Source of the DNA: a virus
Virus record (IMG/VR): IMGVR_UViG_3300042305_000506
Span: 1 to 28,643 of that record
DNA length: 28,643 nt
Strand: one strand, 5' to 3'
The notes under the pieces are model-generated. The model ran no database searches and had not been told where the DNA came from. It was given only the letters and a program-made list of their open reading frames with translations. Both the position numbers and the translations under genes were made by a program. Below, piece by piece: positions 6,879-24,588 of the stretch (position 1 is the stretch's first letter; the number at the start of each line of letters is the position of its first letter).

Positions 6879-6911
6879 TGTTCTTTAGTTTAATAGTTAA
6901 ATAATACACTA

Positions 6912-6960
6912 CAGCTATAAGATTACGTTCACTACCTCAACAGGTTTCCTCTTATAACTG
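6912..6960. ncRNA. Stem-closed structured element
   Basis: CAG-C-TATAAGA (6912-6922) pairs with TCTTATA-A-CTG (6950-6960), 10 bp with one mismatch. It encloses an ACCT/AGGT hairpin (6934-6945) with a CAAC loop. No ORF covers it. Leftward transcription is likely from context. Confidence 0.45.
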
Positions 6961-6971
6961 CAATGCATTAG

Positions 6972-7029
6972 TACCACAAGTCAACCCCTGCTTTACAGGA
7001 TGAGAGGTTATGCCTGAAACCTTGTGGTA
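6972..7029. ncRNA. Stem-closed structured element with 9-bp perfect helix
   Basis: TACCACAAG (6972-6980) pairs perfectly with CTTGTGGTA (7021-7029). Inside, AACC-CCTG (6983-6990) pairs with CAGG (6996-6999) and GGTT (7006-7009). GGTT can alternatively pair with AACC at 7018-7021. Confidence 0.5.
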
Positions 7030-7037
7030 ATATAAAA

Positions 7038-7172
7038 AGGAACAGCTGTGTTTATGACGGTAGAAGACTATGCTTCTACATTCTTGCAATAAGCTATCTT
7101 TAGCCCTTGCTCACCAAGTTCATGGACATTATAAAGACATTTCTACATCTTTATACATTCACAACTGTTCCT
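7038..7172. ncRNA. Large multi-arm structured element, about 135 nt
   Basis: The closing helix is AGGAACAG-C-TGTG (7038-7050) with CACA-A-CTGTTCCT (7160-7172), 12 bp with one mismatch. Inside are GTAGAAG/CTTCTAC (7060-7079), a double-helix arm GCAA..GCTA/TAGC..TTGC (7086-7110), and ATAAAGA/TCTTTAT (7131-7154). There is no substantial reading frame on either strand. The strand is probably minus from the surrounding direction of transcription. No family recognised. Confidence 0.58.
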
Positions 7173-7176
7173 ATAT

Positions 7177-7218
7177 TGTTGACGGAAAACTAATTCCGGA
7201 AGATGTTACTGTCCAACA
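7177..7218. ncRNA. Short stem-closed element
   Basis: TGTTG (7177-7181) pairs with CAACA (7214-7218), enclosing CGGAA/TTCCG (7183-7198). It directly follows the 7038-7172 element, so both may belong to one RNA. Confidence 0.35.
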
Positions 7219-7280
7219 CTAACTAATACTAATAGATATAATAGTAATAAGTAATATAGTAAGGTAGACTATGTGTGTTG

Positions 7281-7360
7281 TATAGATATGGTTGTGTAGC
7301 CATATATATCTATAGTTATATGGGATTTTACTAGATTCTGAATACTAGATATGACCCATA
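7281..7360. repeat. Two AT-rich inverted repeats
   Basis: TATAGATATGG (7281-7291) pairs with CC..ATCTATA (7300-7314). TATGGG (7319-7324) pairs with CCCATA (7355-7360) around CTAG/CTAG. The rest of 7219-7430 is AT-rich, has no gene, and shows only short simple-sequence runs. Confidence 0.35.
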
Positions 7361-7432
7361 GAATAGTGGAGAGATTATCACATCATCACACACACTCATC
7401 ACCATAATGTGTACTTAATAAACAGTGCAACA

Positions 7433-7475
7433 GGGTTGAGTATGCAACTTATGTGCATTTGAGCCTACTCAACCC
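7433..7475 (-). ncRNA. Stem-closed small RNA cassette, about 43 nt
   Basis: GGGTTGAGTA (7433-7442) pairs perfectly with TACTCAACCC (7466-7475), 10 bp. Inside is ATGCA/TGCAT. On the minus strand it begins 5 bases after a copy of the 15-bp cassette motif (7481-7495). This is the same arrangement as the RNA at 9688-9754. Confidence 0.55.
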
Positions 7476-7480
7476 ACAAA

Positions 7481-7495
7481 AGTACAAAGCTGTAC
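7481..7495 (-). promoter_or_regulatory. Cassette motif copy, RNA unit at 7433
   Basis: AGTACAAAGCTGTAC, 13 of 15 matches to AGTAAAAAGCTGTAT, placed 5 bases before the stem-closed RNA. Confidence 0.5.
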
Positions 7496-7518
7496 TAACA
7501 AGTTGCCGAAGGCCTAAT

Positions 7519-7551
7519 TAAAAAAATATAACCCGCACATAATGTACGGGC
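7519..7551 (-). terminator. Terminator of the OB-fold-like gene
   Basis: On the minus strand CCCG..ACAT pairs with ATGT..CGGG (one mismatch), followed by TTATATTTTTTTAAT. Confidence 0.75.
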
Positions 7552-7564
7552 TATATTACTCACA

Positions 7565-7876
7565 TTAGAACAATGGTTCTTCAGCAAGTGTGTTTTCTGC
7601 AATACCAAACAGTGCACCAAGGTTGGCAACAGTTGCAATATTAGCAGAAGGTCCATTAAGTACGGTCAACCAAATGTTGTCTCCGTCTCTTTGACCCTCA
7701 ACGGTATATTCACTACCAAGCTCAACACCATATTGAAAAGACTTTTCCCAAATCTTTGCAATATAATTGTTACCGTCTGCTAATCTAACGGTACAAGTAC
7801 GGTATTGAGATGCATTCTCACTGTTAGCTGTTTTTACTGTGTTGCTAACTGACACTAATGTTCCTTGAACTTTCAT
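7565..7876 (-). CDS. OB-fold-like small protein with SSB-type C-terminal tip, 103 aa
   Basis: 103 residues starting MKVQGTLVSVSNTVKTANSE at the ATG at 7874-7876. I start here because the cassette motif (7908-7922) lies 31 bases upstream; the frame runs on through the motif, but an upstream start would fall beyond it. Residues 2-75 alternate strands and glycine turns (VQGTLVSV, YRTCTVRLADGNNYIAKIW, YTVEGQRDGDNIWLTVL), as expected for a one-domain OB barrel. The tail ends AEEPLF, close to the acidic -PF tip by which bacterial SSBs recruit partner proteins. A single-stranded DNA-binding role is therefore plausible but inferred. Confidence 0.68.
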   Translation of the reverse strand: MKVQGTLVSVSNTVKTANSENASQYRTCTVRLADGNNYIAKIWEKSFQYGVELGSEYTVEGQRDGDNIWLTVLNGPSANIATVANLGALFGIAENTLAEEPLF

Positions 7877-7907
7877 AATAAATAATTTATTGGTTAATAC
7901 TCCAAGC

Positions 7908-7922
7908 AGTAAAAAGCTGTAT
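7908..7922 (-). promoter_or_regulatory. Cassette motif copy upstream of the OB-fold-like gene
   Basis: AGTAAAAAGCTGTAT, exact consensus, 31 bases before the ATG at 7876. A GTGC/GCAC hairpin (about 7931-7942) lies between it and the upstream terminator. Confidence 0.6.
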
Positions 7923-7949
7923 AAACAAGATGTGCGAAGCACCTTATAC

Positions 7950-7972
7950 AAAAAAAGGGGTTTTTACACCCC
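7950..7972 (-). terminator. Terminator overlapping the stop of the 7964 gene
   Basis: On the minus strand GGGG, an 8-base loop containing the TAA stop, CCCC, then TTTTTTT. Confidence 0.8.
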
Positions 7973-8392
7973 TCTGTTGTTCCACTTACCACCGGCATGA
8001 CATTTATAGTCACTGTAGTCAGCATAGCTTGTTTCACTGTAATTAGTACAGTAACCAAATGAATCATTGTACACTTCAGTAATAGTGTACATACCTTGCT
8101 TAGAGTGCAAATGCACTTTATCACCTATTTGTAATTTAGGTGCTTTAGGAAGATGGAGTTCAGCAAGTGCTCTCCCTTCCTCTCTGCATTCCCTTTCCCA
8201 TTCTTCAGCTAACTCTTGTTCAGCTTGTTCTTCAAAGTATCCTTCAGGATAATCATCATCATAATTATCATGATAATCATCATGGTAATATTCTTGATGA
8301 GATCCATATGCTTCACAATAACAAGCATTGTATCCTTCACTATAGATAGCTTGATAGGTTTTAGGGAATAAGAATTTAATTAACTTTTTCAT
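7964..8392 (-). CDS. Tyr/His/Asp-rich unknown protein, 142 aa
   Basis: 142 residues in three parts. A basic N-terminus (MKKLIKFLFPKTYQAIY) comes first. A low-complexity stretch at about residues 31-56 follows, built from HDDYHDNYDDDYPEGY-like repeats, and then an acidic helix (EEQAEQELAEEWERECREEG). The C-terminal part (QIGDKVHLHSKQGMYTITEVYND) is a small beta fold resembling SH3-like barrel turns. The His/Asp/Tyr repeats could bind metal; no family is recognised. It is one unit of the cassette array, with the motif 26 bases upstream and its stop codon inside the terminator loop. Confidence 0.68.
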   Translation of the reverse strand: MKKLIKFLFPKTYQAIYSEGYNACYCEAYGSHQEYYHDDYHDNYDDDYPEGYFEEQAEQELAEEWERECREEGRALAELHLPKAPKLQIGDKVHLHSKQGMYTITEVYNDSFGYCTNYSETSYADYSDYKCHAGGKWNNRGV

Positions 8393-8418
8393 GGGTATTT
8401 GGATTTAAATTTAATAAC

Positions 8419-8433
8419 AGTAATAAGCTGTAT
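8419..8433 (-). promoter_or_regulatory. Cassette motif copy upstream of 7964-8392
   Basis: AGTAATAAGCTGTAT, 14 of 15 matches to consensus, 26 bases before the ATG. Confidence 0.6.
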
Positions 8434-8442
8434 AAGTATAAA

Positions 8443-8456
8443 GGGGATTACTCCCC
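8443..8456 (-). terminator. Minimal terminator with stop codon in its loop
   Basis: On the minus strand GGGGA-GTAA-TCCCC: a 5-bp stem with a GTAA (GNRA-type) tetraloop that holds the TAA stop, then CCCCTTTAT. The T-tract is short. Confidence 0.65.
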
Positions 8457-8612
8457 TCCTGCTAAATCATTTTCAGCTTGTGCTACTAAATGCTCAACAC
8501 AATCTTGGAACCGGTTTCTTCTACCTTCCAACTGTATTATCTCTTGCTTTAGTTCTTCAATTTGCTGGTCTAATAATCTAATCTCCAAAAACAATAATTC
8601 TGTATTTTCCAT
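8448..8612 (-). CDS. Small coiled-coil protein, 54 aa
   Basis: 54 codons from the ATG at 8610-8612 to the TAA at 8448-8450. It begins MENTELLFLEIRLLDQQIEE, continues with a leucine/isoleucine heptad pattern (LKQEIIQLEGRRN), and ends ENDLAGGE. It is almost certainly a coiled coil that dimerises; function unknown. Support comes from the cassette layout: a perfect motif 23 bases upstream, the shared leader TTAAACTATATATTATGGA, and a terminator fused to the stop. Confidence 0.72.
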   Translation of the reverse strand: MENTELLFLEIRLLDQQIEELKQEIIQLEGRRNRFQDCVEHLVAQAENDLAGGE

Positions 8613-8635
8613 AATATATAGTTTAATTAATTACT

Positions 8636-8650
8636 AGTAAAAAGCTGTAT
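8636..8650 (-). promoter_or_regulatory. Cassette motif copy upstream of 8448-8612
   Basis: AGTAAAAAGCTGTAT, exact consensus, 23 bases before the ATG. Confidence 0.62.
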
Positions 8651-8677
8651 AAAAGAAAAAAAAGGGGATTACTCCCC
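8651..8677 (-). terminator. Terminator of the 8679 gene
   Basis: On the minus strand GGGGA-GTAA-TCCCC followed by TTTTTTTTCTTTT. The TAA in the loop is out of use here, since the gene stops 2 bases earlier. Confidence 0.82.
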
Positions 8678-8678
8678 C

Positions 8679-8951
8679 TTAATACTCTGGATTCTCATAG
8701 GCATCTTGCATATTAGCTAATGCTGCTCTCATGTTTTTATCATTCTTTTCTTTGATATCCAGATACTCATTAAGTGCATCTGCAACATGTCTTATCCAAG
8801 CCTCATTACCCCATTTAGTGTAAGCACTATCAGGAAGGTTTATTCTTGATTGAAGTATCTGTATCATACATATCATAGTATGTTTATCTAGATAACCCAT
8901 TCTGTTTAATAAACTTTGAGTAACTTCACTTCTGTCAATTCTTGTTTCCAT
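8679..8951 (-). CDS. Unknown helical protein, 90 aa
   Basis: 90 residues starting METRIDRSEVTQSLLNRMGY at the ATG at 8949-8951. I choose this start because it sits 23 bases after an exact cassette motif and shares the leader TTAAAACTATATATTATGGA with the neighbouring unit. The protein is helical throughout (KHTMICMIQILQSRINLP; WIRHVADALNEYLDIKEKND) and acidic at the end. No family recognised. Confidence 0.7.
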   Translation of the reverse strand: METRIDRSEVTQSLLNRMGYLDKHTMICMIQILQSRINLPDSAYTKWGNEAWIRHVADALNEYLDIKEKNDKNMRAALANMQDAYENPEY

Positions 8952-8974
8952 AATATATAGTTTTAATTTACACA

Positions 8975-8989
8975 AGTAAAAAGCTGTAT
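8975..8989 (-). promoter_or_regulatory. Cassette motif copy upstream of 8679-8951
   Basis: AGTAAAAAGCTGTAT, exact consensus, 23 bases before the ATG. Confidence 0.62.
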
Positions 8990-8991
8990 AA

Positions 8992-9017
8992 TAAAACCTA
9001 GAGGAAATTAATCCTCT
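8992..9017 (-). terminator. Terminator with stop codon in its loop
   Basis: On the minus strand AGAGGA pairs with TCCTCT around a 6-base loop that contains the TAA of the 9008 gene, then AGGTTTTATT. Confidence 0.65.
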
Positions 9018-9199
9018 AAGTCTTCATTATACTCAAATGTTCCGGTCTCTATATACTCTATGATCTCTGCCTTATAAGCATAATCAACAACCTTCCCATC
9101 TGGGAAGAATAAAGCATACTGATCTCTACCATCCATGTCCTGTTGGTATACTACAGTCCCTGTAATAAGATACCAAATAAAAATAATCTGTGCTATCAT
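9008..9199 (-). CDS. Unknown protein, 63 aa, hydrophobic start
   Basis: 63 residues: a short hydrophobic start (MIAQIIFIWYLITGTVVY), then a polar part (QQDMDGRDQYALFFPDGKVV) and an acidic end (YIETGTFEYNEDLED). The start could be a weak membrane segment or simply buried strands. No family recognised. The cassette motif lies 17 bases upstream and the stop is inside the terminator loop. Confidence 0.66.
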   Translation of the reverse strand: MIAQIIFIWYLITGTVVYQQDMDGRDQYALFFPDGKVVDYAYKAEIIEYIETGTFEYNEDLED

Positions 9200-9216
9200 A
9201 TATATAATTTAAAATT

Positions 9217-9231
9217 AGTACAAAGCTGTAT
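9217..9231 (-). promoter_or_regulatory. Cassette motif copy upstream of 9008-9199
   Basis: AGTACAAAGCTGTAT, 14 of 15 matches to consensus, 17 bases before the ATG. Confidence 0.6.
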
Positions 9232-9235
9232 ATAA

Positions 9236-9256
9236 ATAAAAGGGGAATTACTCCCC
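9236..9256 (-). terminator. Terminator with stop codon in its loop
   Basis: On the minus strand GGGGA-GTAAT-TCCCC followed by TTTTATTT. The TAA stop of the 9248 gene is in the loop. Confidence 0.75.
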
Positions 9257-9490
9257 CTCATCTTGCATAAGTTTTAATACTTCAGCAATCTTCTCTAAGA
9301 ATCCTGCATACTCTTCAAGTGCTTGCACTTTTGCTGCAGTTCTAGTTGGAGAATAACTTCCTTTATTACCATGCATGTTAGCACACATAGTAGTAACAGA
9401 TTTTTGATCATGTGTGAAATCTACTATCTTTAATAAAGTTGGTAAATGCAAGTCTTTGAAGCCAAATCTTTTTATTAATTTCTGATCCAT
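9248..9490 (-). CDS. Unknown protein, 80 aa
   Basis: 80 residues starting MDQKLIKRFGFKDLHLPTLL. The middle (VTTMCANMHGNKGSYSPTRT) is followed by an amphipathic helix (AAKVQALEEYAGFLEKIAEV) and a short acidic end. No family recognised. Cassette unit: motif 24 bases upstream, leader TTAAAACTATATAACATGGA, and stop codon within the terminator. Confidence 0.7.
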   Translation of the reverse strand: MDQKLIKRFGFKDLHLPTLLKIVDFTHDQKSVTTMCANMHGNKGSYSPTRTAAKVQALEEYAGFLEKIAEVLKLMQDEGE

Positions 9491-9514
9491 GTTATATAGT
9501 TTTAATTTAAGATT

Positions 9515-9529
9515 AGTAATAAGCTGTAT
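9515..9529 (-). promoter_or_regulatory. Cassette motif copy upstream of 9248-9490
   Basis: AGTAATAAGCTGTAT, 14 of 15 matches to consensus, 24 bases before the ATG. Confidence 0.6.
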
Positions 9530-9530
9530 A

Positions 9531-9566
9531 TCAAAAAGTTAAAGTGCCACTATTAAAGTGACACTT
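9531..9566 (-). terminator. Terminator of the 22-codon cassette
   Basis: On the minus strand AAGTG-T-CACT pairs with AGTG-G-CACTT (9 bp around one mismatch), then TAACTTTTTG. Confidence 0.72.
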
Positions 9567-9570
9567 CAAG

Positions 9571-9639
9571 TTAAGCATTGGGATTTAATACCCATTCTTT
9601 AACTGTTACAATTCCATTGATGATTACATAAGATACCAT
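9571..9639 (-). CDS. Microprotein, 22 aa
   Basis: An ATG at 9637-9639 opens a 22-codon frame ending TAA at 9571-9573. The peptide begins MVSYVIINGIVTVKEW and ends NPNA. Its length alone would not justify a call. The cassette context does: a motif copy 25 bases upstream, the same A/T leader as its neighbours (TTAAAACTAAATATCATGG), and a terminator hairpin 5 bases after the stop. The peptide is beta-prone and uncharged apart from Lys/Glu in the middle. Function unknown. Confidence 0.5.
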   Translation of the reverse strand: MVSYVIINGIVTVKEWVLNPNA

Positions 9640-9664
9640 GATATTTAGTTTTAAGATTAATACT

Positions 9665-9679
9665 AGTGAAAAGCTGTAT
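9665..9679 (-). promoter_or_regulatory. Cassette motif copy upstream of the microprotein
   Basis: AGTGAAAAGCTGTAT, 14 of 15 matches to consensus, 25 bases before the ATG. Confidence 0.6.
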
Positions 9680-9682
9680 AAT

Positions 9683-9754
9683 AAAAAGATATAATGAGTG
9701 TTTCCGTGTTACCCTCCGCGAGAGGATCCCCCAGGATTCATTGCACATTATATC
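9683..9754 (-). ncRNA. Stem-closed small RNA cassette, 67 nt
   Basis: GATATAATG (9688-9696) pairs perfectly with CATTATATC (9746-9754), and on the minus strand TTTTT follows the helix, so the closing stem can double as a terminator. Inside are ATCC/GGAT and CCTC-TCGCG-GAGG hairpins in an unusually G/C-rich core for this genome. The cassette motif (9761-9775) ends only 6 bases before the RNA, where protein cassettes have 17-31 bases. A 72-codon frame crosses this unit and both adjacent motifs and is therefore unlikely to be a gene. Confidence 0.62.
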
Positions 9755-9760
9755 CATAAA

Positions 9761-9775
9761 AGTAAAAAGCTGTAT
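9761..9775 (-). promoter_or_regulatory. Cassette motif copy upstream of the 67-nt RNA
   Basis: AGTAAAAAGCTGTAT, exact consensus, 6 bases before the RNA's closing stem. This limits any transcription start to the motif's downstream edge. Confidence 0.62.
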
Positions 9776-9798
9776 ATATACAAAGAGAAAGAGAAGCC

Positions 9799-10008
9799 TT
9801 ATAGCCTCCCTTTCCACTTATCCATTTTACCCTGTCTCCATTCAGTGTGTAATGTTCTTGCTATCATAAACATACCAAATCCAGCTAATGCTAGTATGAA
9901 TGCATTAGCATACTGATGGCTTATAGCAACATAATATGTTACTGATACAATACACATTATGGTACATGCATAGCATGCAACCATATTAAATAATCCAAAT
10001 ACTTTCAT
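9799..10008 (-). CDS. Small membrane protein with two transmembrane segments, 69 aa
   Basis: 69 residues. Two hydrophobic helices, about residues 5-28 (LFNMVACYACTIMCIVSVTY) and 34-50 (ANAFILALAGFGMFMIA), are joined by a short HQYA loop. A basic tail (WRQGKMDKWKGRL) should stay in the cytoplasm. No family recognised. Small two-helix phage proteins can be exclusion factors or holins, but this one is far from the lysis genes. Cassette unit with motif 26 bases upstream; a weak GAGGC/GCTTC hairpin with a T-rich tail follows the stop. Confidence 0.7.
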   Translation of the reverse strand: MKVFGLFNMVACYACTIMCIVSVTYYVAISHQYANAFILALAGFGMFMIARTLHTEWRQGKMDKWKGRL

Positions 10009-10034
10009 GATGTTTTAATTTTATAATTAATATT

Positions 10035-10049
10035 AGTAGTAAGCTGTAA
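10035..10049 (-). promoter_or_regulatory. Cassette motif copy upstream of 9799-10008
   Basis: AGTAGTAAGCTGTAA, 12 of 15 matches to consensus, 26 bases before the ATG. Confidence 0.52.
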
Positions 10050-10053
10050 ATAA

Positions 10054-10075
10054 AACATAAAGGGGTATTACCCCC
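10054..10075 (-). terminator. Terminator of the 10081 gene
   Basis: On the minus strand GGGG, a short loop (GTAATA), CCCC, then TTTATGTTTTATTT. Confidence 0.65.
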
Positions 10076-10080
10076 TTTTT

Positions 10081-10227
10081 TTAATCCTCACTCCAAAACT
10101 CTAATATATAATTACCACATATATCTTTTCCCATTCCTCCATACAATTCATACACTTCATTAACAAAATATTTCTCTCTATCTATTTCATTATTATCTTC
10201 ATCAAACACAACTTTATTATACCACAT
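10081..10227 (-). CDS. Small acidic protein, 48 aa
   Basis: 48 residues starting MWYNKVVFDEDNNEIDREKY at the ATG at 10225-10227 and ending ILEFWSED. The frame is open further upstream to 10311, but that extension reads straight through the cassette motif (10253-10267), so I take the first ATG after the motif (25 bases). Acidic, with a likely beta-hairpin start; no family recognised. Confidence 0.6.
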   Translation of the reverse strand: MWYNKVVFDEDNNEIDREKYFVNEVYELYGGMGKDICGNYILEFWSED

Positions 10228-10252
10228 AGCTTTATTATTTAATATTAACATT

Positions 10253-10267
10253 AGTATAGAGCTGTAT
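10253..10267 (-). promoter_or_regulatory. Cassette motif copy upstream of 10081-10227
   Basis: AGTATAGAGCTGTAT, 13 of 15 matches to consensus, 25 bases before the ATG. Confidence 0.55.
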
Positions 10268-10576
10268 ATATAGAATGTTGTTGGTTGCTTGCCAGCTAGA
10301 TATATAGACATGGTTGCCAGTACCCCCTGTGCTTGTGTCTTATATACATACTATACTATACTAATCATAGTACTAAGTTGTAGCTAGATCATAGACTGTT
10401 AACAGATACTTTTACCTGTACAAAAAATATTATTTTCATACCCAAAAAGTTTTAATCTGTATAGATTTCATGGGGGGTACCACCAATTCTGGCTGAGGGT
10501 GGGGCGTTGTTATACATACCCCATCATACTCTCTTATATACTACATTCTCAGTAACCCACATTCTAATTAAAGTTA
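10268..10576. other. Divergent intergenic region, left part
   Basis: Separates the leftward and rightward gene sets. It contains a degenerate cassette motif (AGTACTAAGTTGTAG, 10369-10383, 11 of 15), a direct repeat GGTTGC..GCCAG (about 10281-10320), a small AATCT/AGATT hairpin (10455-10468) and a GGGG/CCCC hairpin at about 10501-10523. No convincing gene. This is the place to expect early promoters and possibly a replication origin, but no origin signature is visible. Confidence 0.4.
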
Positions 10577-10584
10577 TATCTTTG
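10577..10584 (+). promoter_or_regulatory. Bacteroidota-type -7 box for the 280-nt RNA
   Basis: TATCTTTG matches TAnnTTTG, the -7 element of the primary sigma factor of Bacteroidota. The structured RNA begins a few bases downstream. No clear -33 TTTG is seen. Confidence 0.55.
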
Positions 10585-10587
10585 TAG

Positions 10588-10865
10588 CATAACTCATTCG
10601 GCATCCCAGTAGAACTGCCCGCTCAGAGTGAGTCTTTTCCCCATCAATGGTAACATTGAGACCCTCTACTTCTCCGGTTGTAGAGCCCCTCCCTGTGGTG
10701 AGATAGCCATAGGCCAAGTTCCAGAACACATACCGTAAGATCTGTGTCCCAGCTCTGGACTTTTTGGATACTGGGAAAGCAGACTGAAGGTACCTAAGTT
10801 TGTATAACTAGTATCCGGCCCAGATAAGTTTCTCTGATCAAGAAGTACTGTCTGGGTTTTTTTTT
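10588..10865 (+). ncRNA. Large structured non-coding RNA, about 280 nt
   Basis: Flanked by a TAnnTTTG box and a T9 terminator, with no significant reading frame. Successive helices: ACTCA/TGAGT (10592-10633) enclosing CAGT/ACTG; TCAATG-GTAA-CATTGA with a GNRA tetraloop (10644-10659); CTCTAC/GTAGAG (10664-10685); CCTGTGG/CCATAGG (10692-10713); CCAGA/TCTGG (10721-10758) enclosing ACACA/TGTGT; GGATACT/AGTATCC (10766-10816). The terminal CCCAGA/TCTGGG stem (10819-10856) then precedes the T-tract. It lacks the hallmark boxes I would expect of RNase P, tmRNA, SRP or group I intron RNA. No family recognised. Confidence 0.72.
10819..10865 (+). terminator. Terminator of the 280-nt RNA
   Basis: CCCAGA pairs with TCTGGG over a 26-base loop holding a TTCT/AGAA helix, then nine T. 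Confidence 0.8.
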
Positions 10866-10895
10866 GTATCTTAGTAGTAAGCTATGTGTTTCTCA

Positions 10896-10945
10896 GGTCA
10901 ACGGACCGGGTAAAGATCCCAGATGTAACAGTCTGGGATTTTTTT
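10896..10945 (+). terminator. Second terminator with related stem, just before the HExxH gene
   Basis: A GGTC-AACG-GACC hairpin (10896-10907) is followed by ATCCCAGA/TCTGGGAT (10916-10939) and TTTTTTT. The core CCCAGAT/GTCTGGG is the same as in the terminator 80 bases upstream, so the pair may be a duplication. Confidence 0.75.
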
Positions 10946-10946
10946 A

Positions 10947-10954
10947 TATATTTG
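10947..10954 (+). promoter_or_regulatory. -7 box giving a near-leaderless transcript
   Basis: TATATTTG matches TAnnTTTG and ends 4 bases before the ATG at 10959, so transcription would start at or very near the start codon. Confidence 0.5.
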
Positions 10955-10958
10955 CTTT

Positions 10959-11402
10959 ATGAAAAAGTTTGACATGGGTAAATATATTCTGTTAGCAGGA
11001 GATAATGCTACAGAAATCTTTGATTATTATAAGGTAGATGAGATGCATGGTCTTAATAGAGCTGATGCTCAGGCAGAAGAAGTTGATAAGACTGTAGGTA
11101 ACGGAGTTTATATTTATGGGTGGACTAATTATGACCCTGCTGATAAGAAGCTAACAGCAAAAGCTCCATACAAACCATTCTTGTTTATTAACCTAGGTAC
11201 ATTCAAGAAGTACTCCCTTACAGAAAAAGCTACAGCTGTTATGCATGAAACTATGCATATGAGTATACTCTTGAACAACTGGAAGATTACTGATAAGGAA
11301 GAAGAAGCAATAGGCTTTGCTGAAGATGAAGCTAATAAGATTATAGAGAAGTTAGGCTTTAATAAAAAGGAAGAACCTAAGAAAGGGTTCTTTAAAAAGT
11401 AA
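10959..11402 (+). CDS. Small HExxH zincin-like putative metalloprotease, 147 aa
   Basis: 147 residues. Residues 96-100 are HETMH in the helix TEKATAVMHETMHMSIL, a zincin zinc-binding motif in which Glu97 would be catalytic. A possible third ligand lies in EEEAIGFAEDEANKI about 14-22 residues later, as in gluzincins. A beta segment (YKPFLFINLGTF) precedes the motif, as expected for the edge strand, and the C-terminus is basic (KKEEPKKGFFKK). No signal peptide. Targets could be phage or host proteins. Its stop overlaps the next ATG by one base, so the two are coupled. The motif is certain; enzymatic activity is inferred. Confidence 0.72.
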   Translation: MKKFDMGKYILLAGDNATEIFDYYKVDEMHGLNRADAQAEEVDKTVGNGVYIYGWTNYDPADKKLTAKAPYKPFLFINLGTFKKYSLTEKATAVMHETMHMSILLNNWKITDKEEEAIGFAEDEANKIIEKLGFNKKEEPKKGFFKK

Positions 11403-12034
11403 TGGCATATATAGAACATAATTTTTTTCCGCTGAAGGTGTTTGTTAGGAATGAGTACATGTATCAGCATACTAAGGGTAAAGGAGAATTCACCCCGGGG
11501 GTTATCATTTCAGTCAGGTGTATGCCGGGTCAAGCGGCACTGTTCCAGGTACTGTTAGAGAATGGTGTACTTAGAGATAAGTTACCATCTCATGCTTTAC
11601 TTACTGAACCAAAGCTACCGGATCCAGATCTACCGTTTCATTACCTACAAATATGGAATTGTTTCAGTTATAACTTCACTCTACTACATCTGTCATATCT
11701 TTATGATACTCCGGTGGAAGTTTATATGAAAGATAAAAAGTTCTACAAAGGTAATTACTATGCTACTATTAACTGGGGTAGTAATGATCCTAACACAGAT
11801 CTATCTTTAGCAGAGGATCCGTTGGAACATAAGAGTCATCATATTATTTTACTTGATAATGGGCAGATAGCACTACAACCTAATAATAGGATTAAATGGT
11901 CTGAGCCTAGCTTTGTTACTAAGCCTTTTCCTGAGAGACCTGACTATCTGGTTAACAAAGATTACTACAATTGTGAGGGTTATGAAAAATGGAATACAGA
12001 AGATTCTGATAGAATGTTTTATGATAATGAATAA
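11402..12034 (+). CDS. Conserved unknown protein, 210 aa
   Basis: 210 residues, mixed alpha/beta. Notable segments are TPGVIISVRCMPGQAALFQV, LENGVLRDKLPSHALLTEPK (a flexible, proline-rich loop follows) and a Tyr-rich acidic C-terminus (NKDYYNCEGYEKWNTEDSDR). I have a faint recollection of similar proteins in crAss-like phages, without function. It starts on the stop codon of the HExxH gene (TAATG), so both proteins come from one two-gene operon ending at the 12103 terminator. Confidence 0.72.
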   Translation: MAYIEHNFFPLKVFVRNEYMYQHTKGKGEFTPGVIISVRCMPGQAALFQVLLENGVLRDKLPSHALLTEPKLPDPDLPFHYLQIWNCFSYNFTLLHLSYLYDTPVEVYMKDKKFYKGNYYATINWGSNDPNTDLSLAEDPLEHKSHHIILLDNGQIALQPNNRIKWSEPSFVTKPFPERPDYLVNKDYYNCEGYEKWNTEDSDRMFYDNE

Positions 12035-13748: not shown

Positions 13749-14087
13749 ATGGACATTTTAAATTTCATATCATGGATTAGAGGGCGCAGACAAGTAACTT
13801 CTGTAGACCCTAAGAAAACATTATTACCAGTAGGTCTTAAAGACGGAAGAAGAGATGATGGTTATATAGCAGGAGCTATTACTGTTGAAGATTTTGCAGC
13901 ACAACTTGGTAGTTCAAATGAAGTATTAGGTATAAGTATATGGGCTAATGGATTTAAATCAGTAGGTTGTATTAATGAAGATATAACATTACCAACTCCA
14001 GGAAATTTCACTTATCCTTCACCATTAGCAATGTGTGCAGGTTCAACATTGACTATTCCTGTTGGAACAACTTTAACAATCGTGTAA
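13749..14087 (+). CDS. Modular tail/appendage protein, 112 aa
   Basis: 112 residues. Residues 1-55 are a module (MDILNFISWIRGRRQVTS, then a loop to DDGYIAGAITVEDF) shared with the proteins at 15457 and 16011. The C-terminal half is a short beta-rich domain (ITLPTPGNFTYPSPLAMCAG; TLTIPVGTTLTIV). The shared start with variable remainder, in the middle of fibre genes, suggests a virion-attachment module carrying different tips. First gene of the block, 11 bases after the promoter-like block. Confidence 0.66.
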   Translation: MDILNFISWIRGRRQVTSVDPKKTLLPVGLKDGRRDDGYIAGAITVEDFAAQLGSSNEVLGISIWANGFKSVGCINEDITLPTPGNFTYPSPLAMCAGSTLTIPVGTTLTIV

Positions 14088-15456: not shown

Positions 15457-16008
15457 ATGGATATTTTAAACTGGCTGTATATAAAATCACAGCAACTTAT
15501 CAGAACAAAAGCAAATGACCCTAACTCAGACCTATTAGTATTAGGTGCTAATGTTGGGTTTAACAAAAGAGATGATCAGTATCAGACTTATGCAATGCCT
15601 CTTAAAGATGCAGTGCAGTCTGGTTGCACAGGTAATACTAAACATTATGAGTTAGATATTACAGCTACTAATACTGTAGTAGTAGATACTCCCCGTGGTA
15701 TTATTGATATTACTGGTATGGGTACATCAAATCCTTTAACTCCAGATCCAGCTTTTGGTAGCACTACATTATTTAAAATTGATAATCCAGATTTAGATCT
15801 TACTGTAGCTAACAGAGATAATATATATTTACAATACTCAGTATATTATAAAGCAGCTACAACGGATAATGCTATTCCATACTTAATTTCTACAGGAGCA
15901 GTTAATGGATTAGATTTTAATCTTTATAATGCTAATCCGGCTACTGCAGGAACTAATGATTGGCAAGGAGCATTGTATGTATACTATGAATTATATACAC
16001 TTAATTAA
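15457..16008 (+). CDS. Modular tail/appendage protein, 183 aa
   Basis: 183 residues. N-terminal module MDILNWLYIKSQQLIRTKAN, then LLVLGANVGFNKRDDQYQTY, a divergent version of the 13749/16011 module. The C-terminal part is a beta-rich domain (HYELDITATNTVVVDTPRGI; NIYLQYSVYYKA; ALYVYYELYTLN). No enzymatic motif. It ends 2 bases before the next gene, which begins with the same module. Confidence 0.68.
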   Translation: MDILNWLYIKSQQLIRTKANDPNSDLLVLGANVGFNKRDDQYQTYAMPLKDAVQSGCTGNTKHYELDITATNTVVVDTPRGIIDITGMGTSNPLTPDPAFGSTTLFKIDNPDLDLTVANRDNIYLQYSVYYKAATTDNAIPYLISTGAVNGLDFNLYNANPATAGTNDWQGALYVYYELYTLN

Positions 16009-16010
16009 TT

Positions 16011-16697
16011 ATGGATATTCTAAATTTCATATCTTGGATAGCTAGCAGAAGAAGAGTTGTTACATCAGCTCCGGATGATGCTTTGGTACCAATTGGTATC
16101 AGAACAGAAACTAGAGATGATAAGTATACTACAGTAGCTATCAAGAAATCTGACTTGATCACTACACCAGAACCTGCATATAAAGTATATACTGCTTTAT
16201 TAACACAGAGTGGTGGGGATGATCCTCTATCTATATCTGAAGGTACTTTAACAATAGGAGTTACATATTATATAAATGATACAGTCATTGATATGGATTT
16301 TACTAATGTAGGAGCTCCTAATAATAATGTAGGAACATATTTTGTAGCAACTGGAACTAACCCTAATTGGGGAACAAATCCATTAGAATCTGCAATACTT
16401 TTTTATAACACAGGAACCCCAGTAGTAACAGTATTAGAGAATACTATTGGGAATATTTGGTTTACTTATAATAGTGATGGTTTTTATGGTATTAATTCAA
16501 ATGGGTTATTTACAAATAATAAATCTGTTATTTTTATAACTAATACAACTGGTGATATTAATAGCCCATCAGAAATAGTAAAGGCAGCAACATACGACCT
16601 ATCTAGTATGTATGTAGCATCATTCAGTACTGGAGCTCCTCCAAATAGTATCAATATATTATACAACACCCCAATAGAAATAAGAGTATATAATTAA
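16011..16697 (+). CDS. Modular tail/appendage protein, 228 aa
   Basis: 228 residues. N-terminal module MDILNFISWIASRRRVVTSA through TRDDKYTTVAIKKSDL, as in 13749. The C-terminal domain starts YKVYTALLTQSGGDDPLS and ends NILYNTPIEIRVYN, as in 15029. It thus combines both shared modules. The middle has two extra beta segments (IGVTYYINDTVIDMDFTN; GTYFVATGTNPNWG). Function is presumably host-surface contact. Confidence 0.7.
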   Translation: MDILNFISWIASRRRVVTSAPDDALVPIGIRTETRDDKYTTVAIKKSDLITTPEPAYKVYTALLTQSGGDDPLSISEGTLTIGVTYYINDTVIDMDFTNVGAPNNNVGTYFVATGTNPNWGTNPLESAILFYNTGTPVVTVLENTIGNIWFTYNSDGFYGINSNGLFTNNKSVIFITNTTGDINSPSEIVKAATYDLSSMYVASFSTGAPPNSINILYNTPIEIRVYN

Positions 16698-23845: not shown

Positions 23846-24205
23846 ATGGCTTTAGTTAATCAGGTACAGAAAAGAGTAGTGATGTCAAAAAATGATATCA
23901 TTAAGTTTCAGATCTTAACTCATTGTTATATTAACCGTATAACAATGAGTGAGTCTGATCTGGAATGTTTAACTCTGTTATCATTACTTGGTCCAATTGA
24001 ACTCTCTCATTTTTGTTATGAAGCATCTGATGAACATAAGATATTTAAGTCAGAGCAAACAGTAAGAAACTGTATTAATAAGTGTGAGAAGAATAATTTA
24101 GTAAGCAAGGATCCTTCAAATAAAAAGGTTGTATTTATAGACCCAGCTCTAAAGGTGCAGACTGAAGGTGACATATTATTAGACTTTAAATTTTTAGGTA
24201 AATGA
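23846..24205 (+). CDS. Winged-helix-like unknown protein, 119 aa
   Basis: 119 residues: helices (NDIIKFQILTHCYINRITMS; ESDLECLTLLSLLGPIELSH), then KSEQTVRNCINKCEKNNLVS, which has the recognition-helix look of a winged helix, and a beta wing (KKVVFIDPALKV). Conserved in layout before the IHF-like gene. DNA binding is plausible. Its stop overlaps the next start by four bases (ATGA). Confidence 0.66.
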   Translation: MALVNQVQKRVVMSKNDIIKFQILTHCYINRITMSESDLECLTLLSLLGPIELSHFCYEASDEHKIFKSEQTVRNCINKCEKNNLVSKDPSNKKVVFIDPALKVQTEGDILLDFKFLGK

Positions 24206-24588
24206 TACCACAGAAGTCAAAGTCTTTATATAAAGAAGTTGCTGAAGAATTAAATATCCCAATTGATCTAGTTGAAGATTTGATTGAGTATTATTACAAA
24301 GAAGTAAAAAGTAATATAACAGGTTTAAAACATTTAAGAATAAATGTAGATGGTCTTGGTCAGTTTGTTATAAAAGAAAGTTTTGTAAGAAAGATGGTGC
24401 CTAGATATAAAAAGGCATTAACCAACCATGACACATCTACCTTTAATGCTTATCACCACAAGATGATGCTAGAAAAAAAACTAATAGCTTTGGCTCACAT
24501 AGAAAAAGAATTAGATAAAGTAGCATTAAAAAAGCAAGAGACTTTAAAGAAGAAAGAAGAATATAAACTTAATAAAGAAGACTTATGA
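24202..24588 (+). CDS. IHF/HU-like DNA-bending protein
   Basis: 128 residues. The first 75 match the HU/IHF fold: two N-terminal helices (YKEVAEELNIPIDLVEDLIE, YYYKEVKSNITGLKHL) and a beta sheet (LRINVDGLGQFVIKESFVRK). The C-terminal 50 are a long basic helix (LIALAHIEKELDKVALKKQE) not present in HU. IHF-like proteins of this kind are a known feature of crAss-type head modules and probably shape DNA for packaging or ejection. The long arm with the Pro tip is not clearly visible. Coupled to both neighbours by four-base overlaps. Confidence 0.74.
   Translation: MIPQKSKSLYKEVAEELNIPIDLVEDLIEYYYKEVKSNITGLKHLRINVDGLGQFVIKESFVRKMVPRYKKALTNHDTSTFNAYHHKMMLEKKLIALAHIEKELDKVALKKQETLKKKEEYKLNKEDL

Follow-up and report, generated by a model that had tools for sequence, protein, structure and literature searches.

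An array of single-gene cassettes behind a lineage-specific, probable promoter motif in a distant crAss-like phage

Related phages of the T7 family have private promoter spellings, each matched to the phage's own polymerase. For T4-like phages, the account in PMC4503421 (citing Arbiol 2010 and Comeau 2014) describes promoter early stem-loop elements (PeSLs), composites of a promoter and a stem-loop terminator which stand between small variable genes and provide homology for modular shuffling. The early genes of phage phi14:2 are reported as rifampicin-resistant in PMC8375218 and PMC10136315. Here we analyse a stretch of 28,643 nucleotides from the IMG/VR record IMGVR_UViG_3300042305_000506 (hereafter the window), a fragment of a crAss-like phage genome of approximately 110 kb whose complete relatives measure 107-122 kb. 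Between positions 7433 and 10267 a 15-bp motif recurs ahead of small genes and RNAs, forming an array of cassettes. From the sequence evidence we hold it fairly probable that these are single-gene transcription units and that the motif is a phage-specific promoter, most likely read by a virion-carried RNA polymerase (vRNAP) soon after injection.

Eleven copies of the motif (sense-strand consensus ATACAGCTTnnTACT) lie at 7481-10267 in one orientation, spaced by 96-511 bp; four are exact, four carry one mismatch, two carry two and one carries three. A search with AGTAAAAAGCTGTAT allowing up to three mismatches returned 14 matches in the window, while shuffled sequences gave 3.3 on average and 9 at most, with none of 100 reaching 14. 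The array continues upstream with a twelfth, weaker copy at 10369-10383 (CTACAACTTAGTACT) and with a degenerate copy at 10448-10462. Reading leftward along the minus strand, 9 of the 11 copies are followed at 17-31 nt by an open reading frame (ORF) of 22-142 codons, taking a 48-codon ORF as that of the first cassette (median distance from motif to start codon, 25 nt), and the other two (9761 and 7481) by an RNA starting some 5 nt away. The motif itself sits a few nucleotides after terminators, and precedes coding and non-coding units alike. The initial annotation, made from the letters of the window, had claimed eleven copies in one orientation, at least nine of them with at least 13 of 15 matches (10 of 11 reach this level), each followed by one small ORF or RNA at these sizes and distances and usually by a terminator, and the layout bears this out.

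The composition of the motif was next compared with known promoter types. A T usually precedes it, and a T three nucleotides past it is invariant in 35 non-redundant sites, which were pre-filtered on their CAGC core, giving the extended consensus T-ATACAGCTTnnTACT-nnT. Sequence information does not extend beyond the motif and the bases nearest to it; further upstream it falls to about 0.14 bit per column, and no additional conserved block of the -33 or -35 kind was found there. Sigma70-like sites are not enriched in the array region (13 against 18.7 expected), and together these two observations set the motif apart from the T4-type early promoters for the host sigma70 polymerase that belong to PeSLs. 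Neither does the consensus contain a conserved inverted repeat, as in the promoter hairpins of N4-type vRNAPs; by inspection, only the copy at 7481 could form a full one. A two-mismatch copy at 24061-24075 lies within a conserved coding gene, and a single outlying copy is also present in three relatives. It was rejected as an array member or promoter on account of this coding position and of coding conservation.

Terminator-like hairpins are concentrated in the array, with 17 in positions 7200-10500 against 1.1 expected, compared with 10 against 6.5 in the rightward operons and 5 against 1.7 in the left operons of the window. Across the arrays, a hairpin below -5 kcal/mol was found at 180 of 183 junctions, against 104 of 183 after shuffling. 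Several terminators overlap the end of the gene, with the stop codon inside the hairpin loop. Unrelated cassette proteins share a C-terminal -GE (20 of 184, against 1 of 560 background ORFs), apparently because their stop codon sits in the loop of the GGGGAGTAATCCCC terminator. The cassette proteins gave no function and no known domain in Pfam and PHROGs. The 22-codon ORF encodes an identical peptide in the window and in locus L075 despite about ten synonymous changes, and is thus a real microprotein. Among the RNAs, family R1 (approximately 73-103 nt, with a long closing rod) occurs at seven loci under several dialects of the motif, namely the window, L097, L108, L126, L141, L265 and L276. 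Its rod has 18 pairs, three of which show changes on both sides among only seven sequences, and it has no counterpart in Rfam; when the window and two relatives were scanned against Rfam, none of the array RNAs could be credibly placed in a family. Three further families (R2-R4) were found in other relatives, and one array slot holds four different structured RNAs across relatives.

A search for the cassette pattern recovered six further contigs that carry this motif. In each, 5-11 copies are gathered into a single array with next to none outside it, and together with the window these contigs make seven arrays of this dialect (G-numbers below denote genomes or contigs of relatives). The motif is retained in all relatives found with a window-type array, and the 69-, 63- and 103-codon ORFs as well as the 22-codon ORF are present in every array that reaches them. 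Other units are swapped for unrelated genes, missing, or placed in another slot. When pairs with the same upstream unit and a differing next unit were compared, the motif was kept and identity ended 0-15 nt past it in 33 of 33 cases. G5 has lost one unit by deletion, and the unit that follows has a chimeric leader made from the leaders of the two. Given these variable end points, one of them chimeric, recombination at the junctions appears to be homologous. As in PeSL shuffling, a motif and a stem-loop terminator lie side by side between genes, at the very junction used in gene exchange.

More distant relatives were reached through a neighbouring gene (11402-12034), which served as a lead to 80 further loci, with any repeated 15-mer beside its homologue being sought de novo. 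The same cassette geometry was found with other motifs, among them AACATCTTnnTACT, AACCTCTCATnACT, AACAGCTCAnAACT, TAACTGTGTnnTACT, ACCATTTTATAACT, TAACAACTTTATAAT and TTTTTCCACTTTTAA, mostly in 5-13 copies per motif and beside genes that are 91-98% conserved. The spelling is ATACAGCTTnnTACT in G4, AAACATCTTnnTACT in G7 and TAACTGTGTnnTACT in G11, and across eight large genomes each has 4-12 sites of its own motif and 0-1 of any foreign one. As read from these sequences, related phages keep the array but spell its motif according to lineage, nearly uniformly within a genome. Homologous cassettes stand under different spellings, and genes thus cross dialects yet adopt the resident promoter: over 180 nt from codon 5 on, the 63-codon ORF of G6 and a gene in L075 share 98.3% identity, with unrelated promoter and leader. 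A repeat in G36 resembling the motif was rejected as a gene remnant. The product of the lead gene falls in a family that is annotated as ferredoxin and is often seen in cyanophages, and its relatives occur on more than 440 viral contig stretches; since most vRNAP-bearing relatives do not have it, it looks like a mobile extra gene.

Layout and comparison together lend good support to the arrangement of one putative promoter, one gene and one terminator put forward in the initial annotation. Its idea of a plug-in site is directly supported by the 33 swap junctions and the chimeric deletion junction. The scan of related genomes which it proposed revealed a conserved motif and cassettes gained, lost and exchanged; the lineage-specific spelling went beyond what its reader could see.

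Which protein would read the motif? The window stops before the vRNAP gene, known from complete relatives, where it encodes 3.3-4.7 thousand residues with the motif GADFDVDK or close variants (one identified protein has 3415 aa and GADFDVDK). Its core profile matches the phi14:2 virion RNA polymerase (gp66, PDB 6vr4; E=5e-8), the RNA polymerase of crAss001 was recovered with it by tblastn, and vRNAP relatives are encoded in 215 IMG/VR stretches. The clearest contrast is between G4 and G7. Their core proteins are nearly identical (TerL 96%, MCP 98%, DNA polymerase 97%, DnaB 97%, primase 94%), while the vRNAP shares 40% and the neighbouring giant protein 39%, and no nucleotide similarity can be detected in the array or in most of the virion module (42-84 kb) that includes the vRNAP. 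Two positions differ throughout between their motif copies. G4 and G5 use the same dialect, with 81% identity in vRNAP and 86% in the neighbouring giant protein, and less similar replication genes. On a vRNAP tree of 17 genomes the motif columns require 49 changes, against 57.3 with shuffled labels (p=0.008). Genomes with ACnTCT-type motifs form one supported clade on this tree, although these classes were drawn after the vRNAP identities had been seen, and for this reason we rely on the class-free column test. We favour the vRNAP as the probable reader for three reasons: nothing else recognised as a transcription enzyme is among the changed genes, the motif consists of one block and shows no host-like elements, and, according to PMC10136315, it is the vRNAP that drives the early genes of phi14:2. 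The suggestion, made from the window alone, of an early promoter for a phage polymerase is thus plausible and preferred, given a phi14:2-like vRNAP in the lineage and the joint change of dialect and vRNAP module in G4 and G7.

Several observations weigh against this assignment. G4 and G7 are a single contrast, in which the whole virion module changed and not the vRNAP alone. Congruence with the motif is not unique to the vRNAP: 7 of 35 other genes do slightly better and 5 equally well, MCP and DnaB give the same area under the curve, and the vRNAP did not stand out when motif distance was correlated with protein distance for each gene in turn. G7 and G45 have a common dialect though their vRNAPs are only 41% identical. 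Several complete relatives yielded no array: none was found in the regions of G34, G36, G61-G63, G69, G70, G72 and others, which the search or the regions fetched may explain, nor by the same method in crAss001 and phi14:2, the latter with at most two similar sites. Finally, an HU/IHF-like protein (24202-24588) is 45% identical between G4 and G7 and 80% between G4 and G5. Either it or an adjoining small protein of 119 aa (23846-24205; 74% and 90% in the same pairs, with a parsimony fit to the motif slightly above that of the vRNAP) could be a phage DNA-binding factor that redirects the host RNA polymerase and sets the dialect. We regard this alternative as unlikely, though it is the strongest of those considered: both genes lie in a rightward, late-type operon with structural genes, the HU-family Pfam match is below cut-off, the absence of a -33/-35 block and of sigma70-like enrichment is not what a host enzyme would lead one to expect, and a search for sigma region 4 found none.

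The motif might instead act after transcription, as a translation signal or processing site in the leaders of one or a few longer transcripts. Its fixed distance upstream of start codons and the lack of an obvious Shine-Dalgarno sequence in the array genes would fit such a role, which is nevertheless quite improbable, for the motif also stands before units without an ORF and directly after terminators, and varies by lineage while the downstream leader stays similar. That it is a site-specific recombination site in an integron-like array expressed from elsewhere is very improbable indeed: cassettes are exchanged close to it, but the junctions vary and one is chimeric, as homologous recombination predicts, an imported gene stands under the retained resident motif, and no tyrosine recombinase was found in five relatives in which positive controls were detected.

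Returning to the promoter and the vRNAP, the reading we prefer draws on the layout and conservation of the array, its confinement to one place, the swaps at its junctions, its lineage spellings, and the joint replacement of array and vRNAP module in G4 and G7. The motif would be a compact, one-block promoter that either spans the transcription start or lies immediately before it. From each unit would come one small protein or one structured RNA, and transcription would stop at the unit's private terminator, which in many cases overlaps the stop codon. The block of terminator, motif and leader would offer a short stretch of repeated homology, and through recombination there gene bodies would be exchanged, lost or added under the resident promoter. 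The promoter would most likely be read early, by a polymerase injected with the virion, and the products may have accessory or counter-defence roles. Such reading would explain why the spelling is lineage-specific, near-uniform per genome, and shifts when the polymerase module shifts. More tentatively, the spelling may be a private code between a phage lineage and its injected polymerase. An exchange of the polymerase module would then bring a coordinated rewriting of the array, and a gene brought in from elsewhere would work only under the resident spelling. If true, this would stop co-infecting competitor phages from using each other's early genes.

Table 1. Features of the cassette array, in reading order along the minus strand (window positions).
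Feature	Position	Strand	In relatives
Motif copy 1 (ATACAGCTCTATACT)	10253..10267	-	
Cassette 1 ORF, 48 codons (MWYNKVV...)	10081..10227	-	Unrelated 54-codon ORF instead in G4/G5; absent in G1, G6
Cassette 1 terminator hairpin	10059..10077	-	
Motif copy 2	10035..10049	-	
Cassette 2 ORF, 69 codons, probably membrane protein	9799..10008	-	In all 7 arrays of the window dialect
Terminator-like hairpin, overlaps cassette 2 ORF end	9786..9815	-	
Motif copy 3	9761..9775	-	
Cassette 3, structured RNA family R1	9683..9755	-	Other RNA in slot in G2, G3/G4, G6; none in G1/G5
Motif copy 4	9665..9679	-	
Cassette 4 ORF, 22 codons, MVSYVIINGIVTVKEWVLNPNA	9571..9639	-	All 7 arrays; also under three other motif spellings
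Cassette 4 terminator hairpin	9539..9569	-	
Motif copy 5	9515..9529	-	
Cassette 5 ORF, 80 codons	9248..9490	-	Three unrelated replacements or deletion
Cassette 5 terminator hairpin GAGGGGGAGTAATTCCCCTTT, stop codon in loop	9239..9259	-	
Motif copy 6	9217..9231	-	
Cassette 6 ORF, 63 codons (MIAQIIF...)	9008..9199	-	Homologues under several other motif spellings
Motif copy 7	8975..8989	-	
Cassette 7 ORF, 90 codons (METRID...)	8679..8951	-	Other slot in G1
Cassette 7 terminator hairpin	8661..8680	-	
Motif copy 8	8636..8650	-	
Cassette 8 ORF, 54 codons, ends -GGE, stop codon in terminator loop	8448..8612	-	
Cassette 8 hairpin GGGGAGTAATCCCC	8443..8456	-	
Motif copy 9	8419..8433	-	
Cassette 9 ORF, 142 codons	7964..8392	-	
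Cassette 9 terminator hairpin	7954..7975	-	
Motif copy 10	7908..7922	-	
Cassette 10 ORF, 103 codons (MKVQGTL...)	7565..7876	-	Every window-dialect array reaching this end; homologues in other dialects
Cassette 10 terminator hairpin	7525..7557	-	
Motif copy 11	7481..7495	-	
Cassette 11 start, non-coding RNA opening with 10-bp stem-loop	7433..7475	-	

Around the array, some 550 bases at 6880-7430, adjoining cassette 11, have no ORF on the array strand and are possibly a long non-coding RNA or a control region. On the other side, at approximately 10270-10950, the sign of the GC skew flips between divergent gene blocks, a likely divide of transcription directions and perhaps also of replication. 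Three adjoining ORFs (13749-14087, 15457-16008 and 16011-16697) have a common N-terminus, MDILN(F/W), and are probable paralogous tail or fibre adaptors. The gene families for terminase, ParB, portal, head protein, primase, helicase and DNA polymerase, drawn from the window and from complete relatives, indicate a crAss-like phage distant from those that have been named. The terminase, portal and major head protein belong to phage families, and the terminase comes nearest to Crassvirales, at only about 25% identity, which suggests a distant or new group. Complete relatives also have the giant RNA polymerase, homologous to those of phi14:2 and crAss001, found in members of Crassvirales. A similarity search with the array DNA gave no match among named phages, and for the host the sole genome match is a short contig in a mixed bin.

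Phages of the crAss-like type are among the most abundant known, and the structure of their giant injected polymerase has been solved. Because close relatives provide a matched set of polymerases and candidate promoters, including the near-natural swap between G4 and G7, promoter recognition could be tested in vitro. The array also provides a rule by which small RNAs and early accessory genes can be located in uncultured phages, and it reveals the way in which such genes are exchanged.

Compared with the T7 family, the polymerase has another fold, and among the array phages the spelling can differ when the remaining core genes of two phages are 94-98% identical. With phi14:2 there is a homologous giant polymerase and a set of short genes at one place in the genome; in contrast, phi14:2 and crAss001 gave no array by the same method, and we found no reported promoter motif for a crAss-like giant polymerase in the literature searched. 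The AT-rich vRNAP promoters of Thermus phage P23-45 likewise consist of a short motif ahead of pre-early genes and are restricted to relatives that carry the vRNAP, although phage and motif are different, and one-gene terminator cassettes and a dialect series do not feature in the account in PMC10770324. The PeSLs, as PMC4503421 portrays them, resemble the array most closely in their composite build and shuffling, whereas the array belongs to phages of another group with their own vRNAP, and has a one-block, non-sigma70 motif, a single dense arrangement, structured RNAs and a lineage-specific spelling. Shuffling cassettes of the PeSL kind have precedents in T4-like phages. Within the literature searched, the features that appear to be new are the crAss-like setting, a promoter probably read by the vRNAP, and dialects specific to each lineage.

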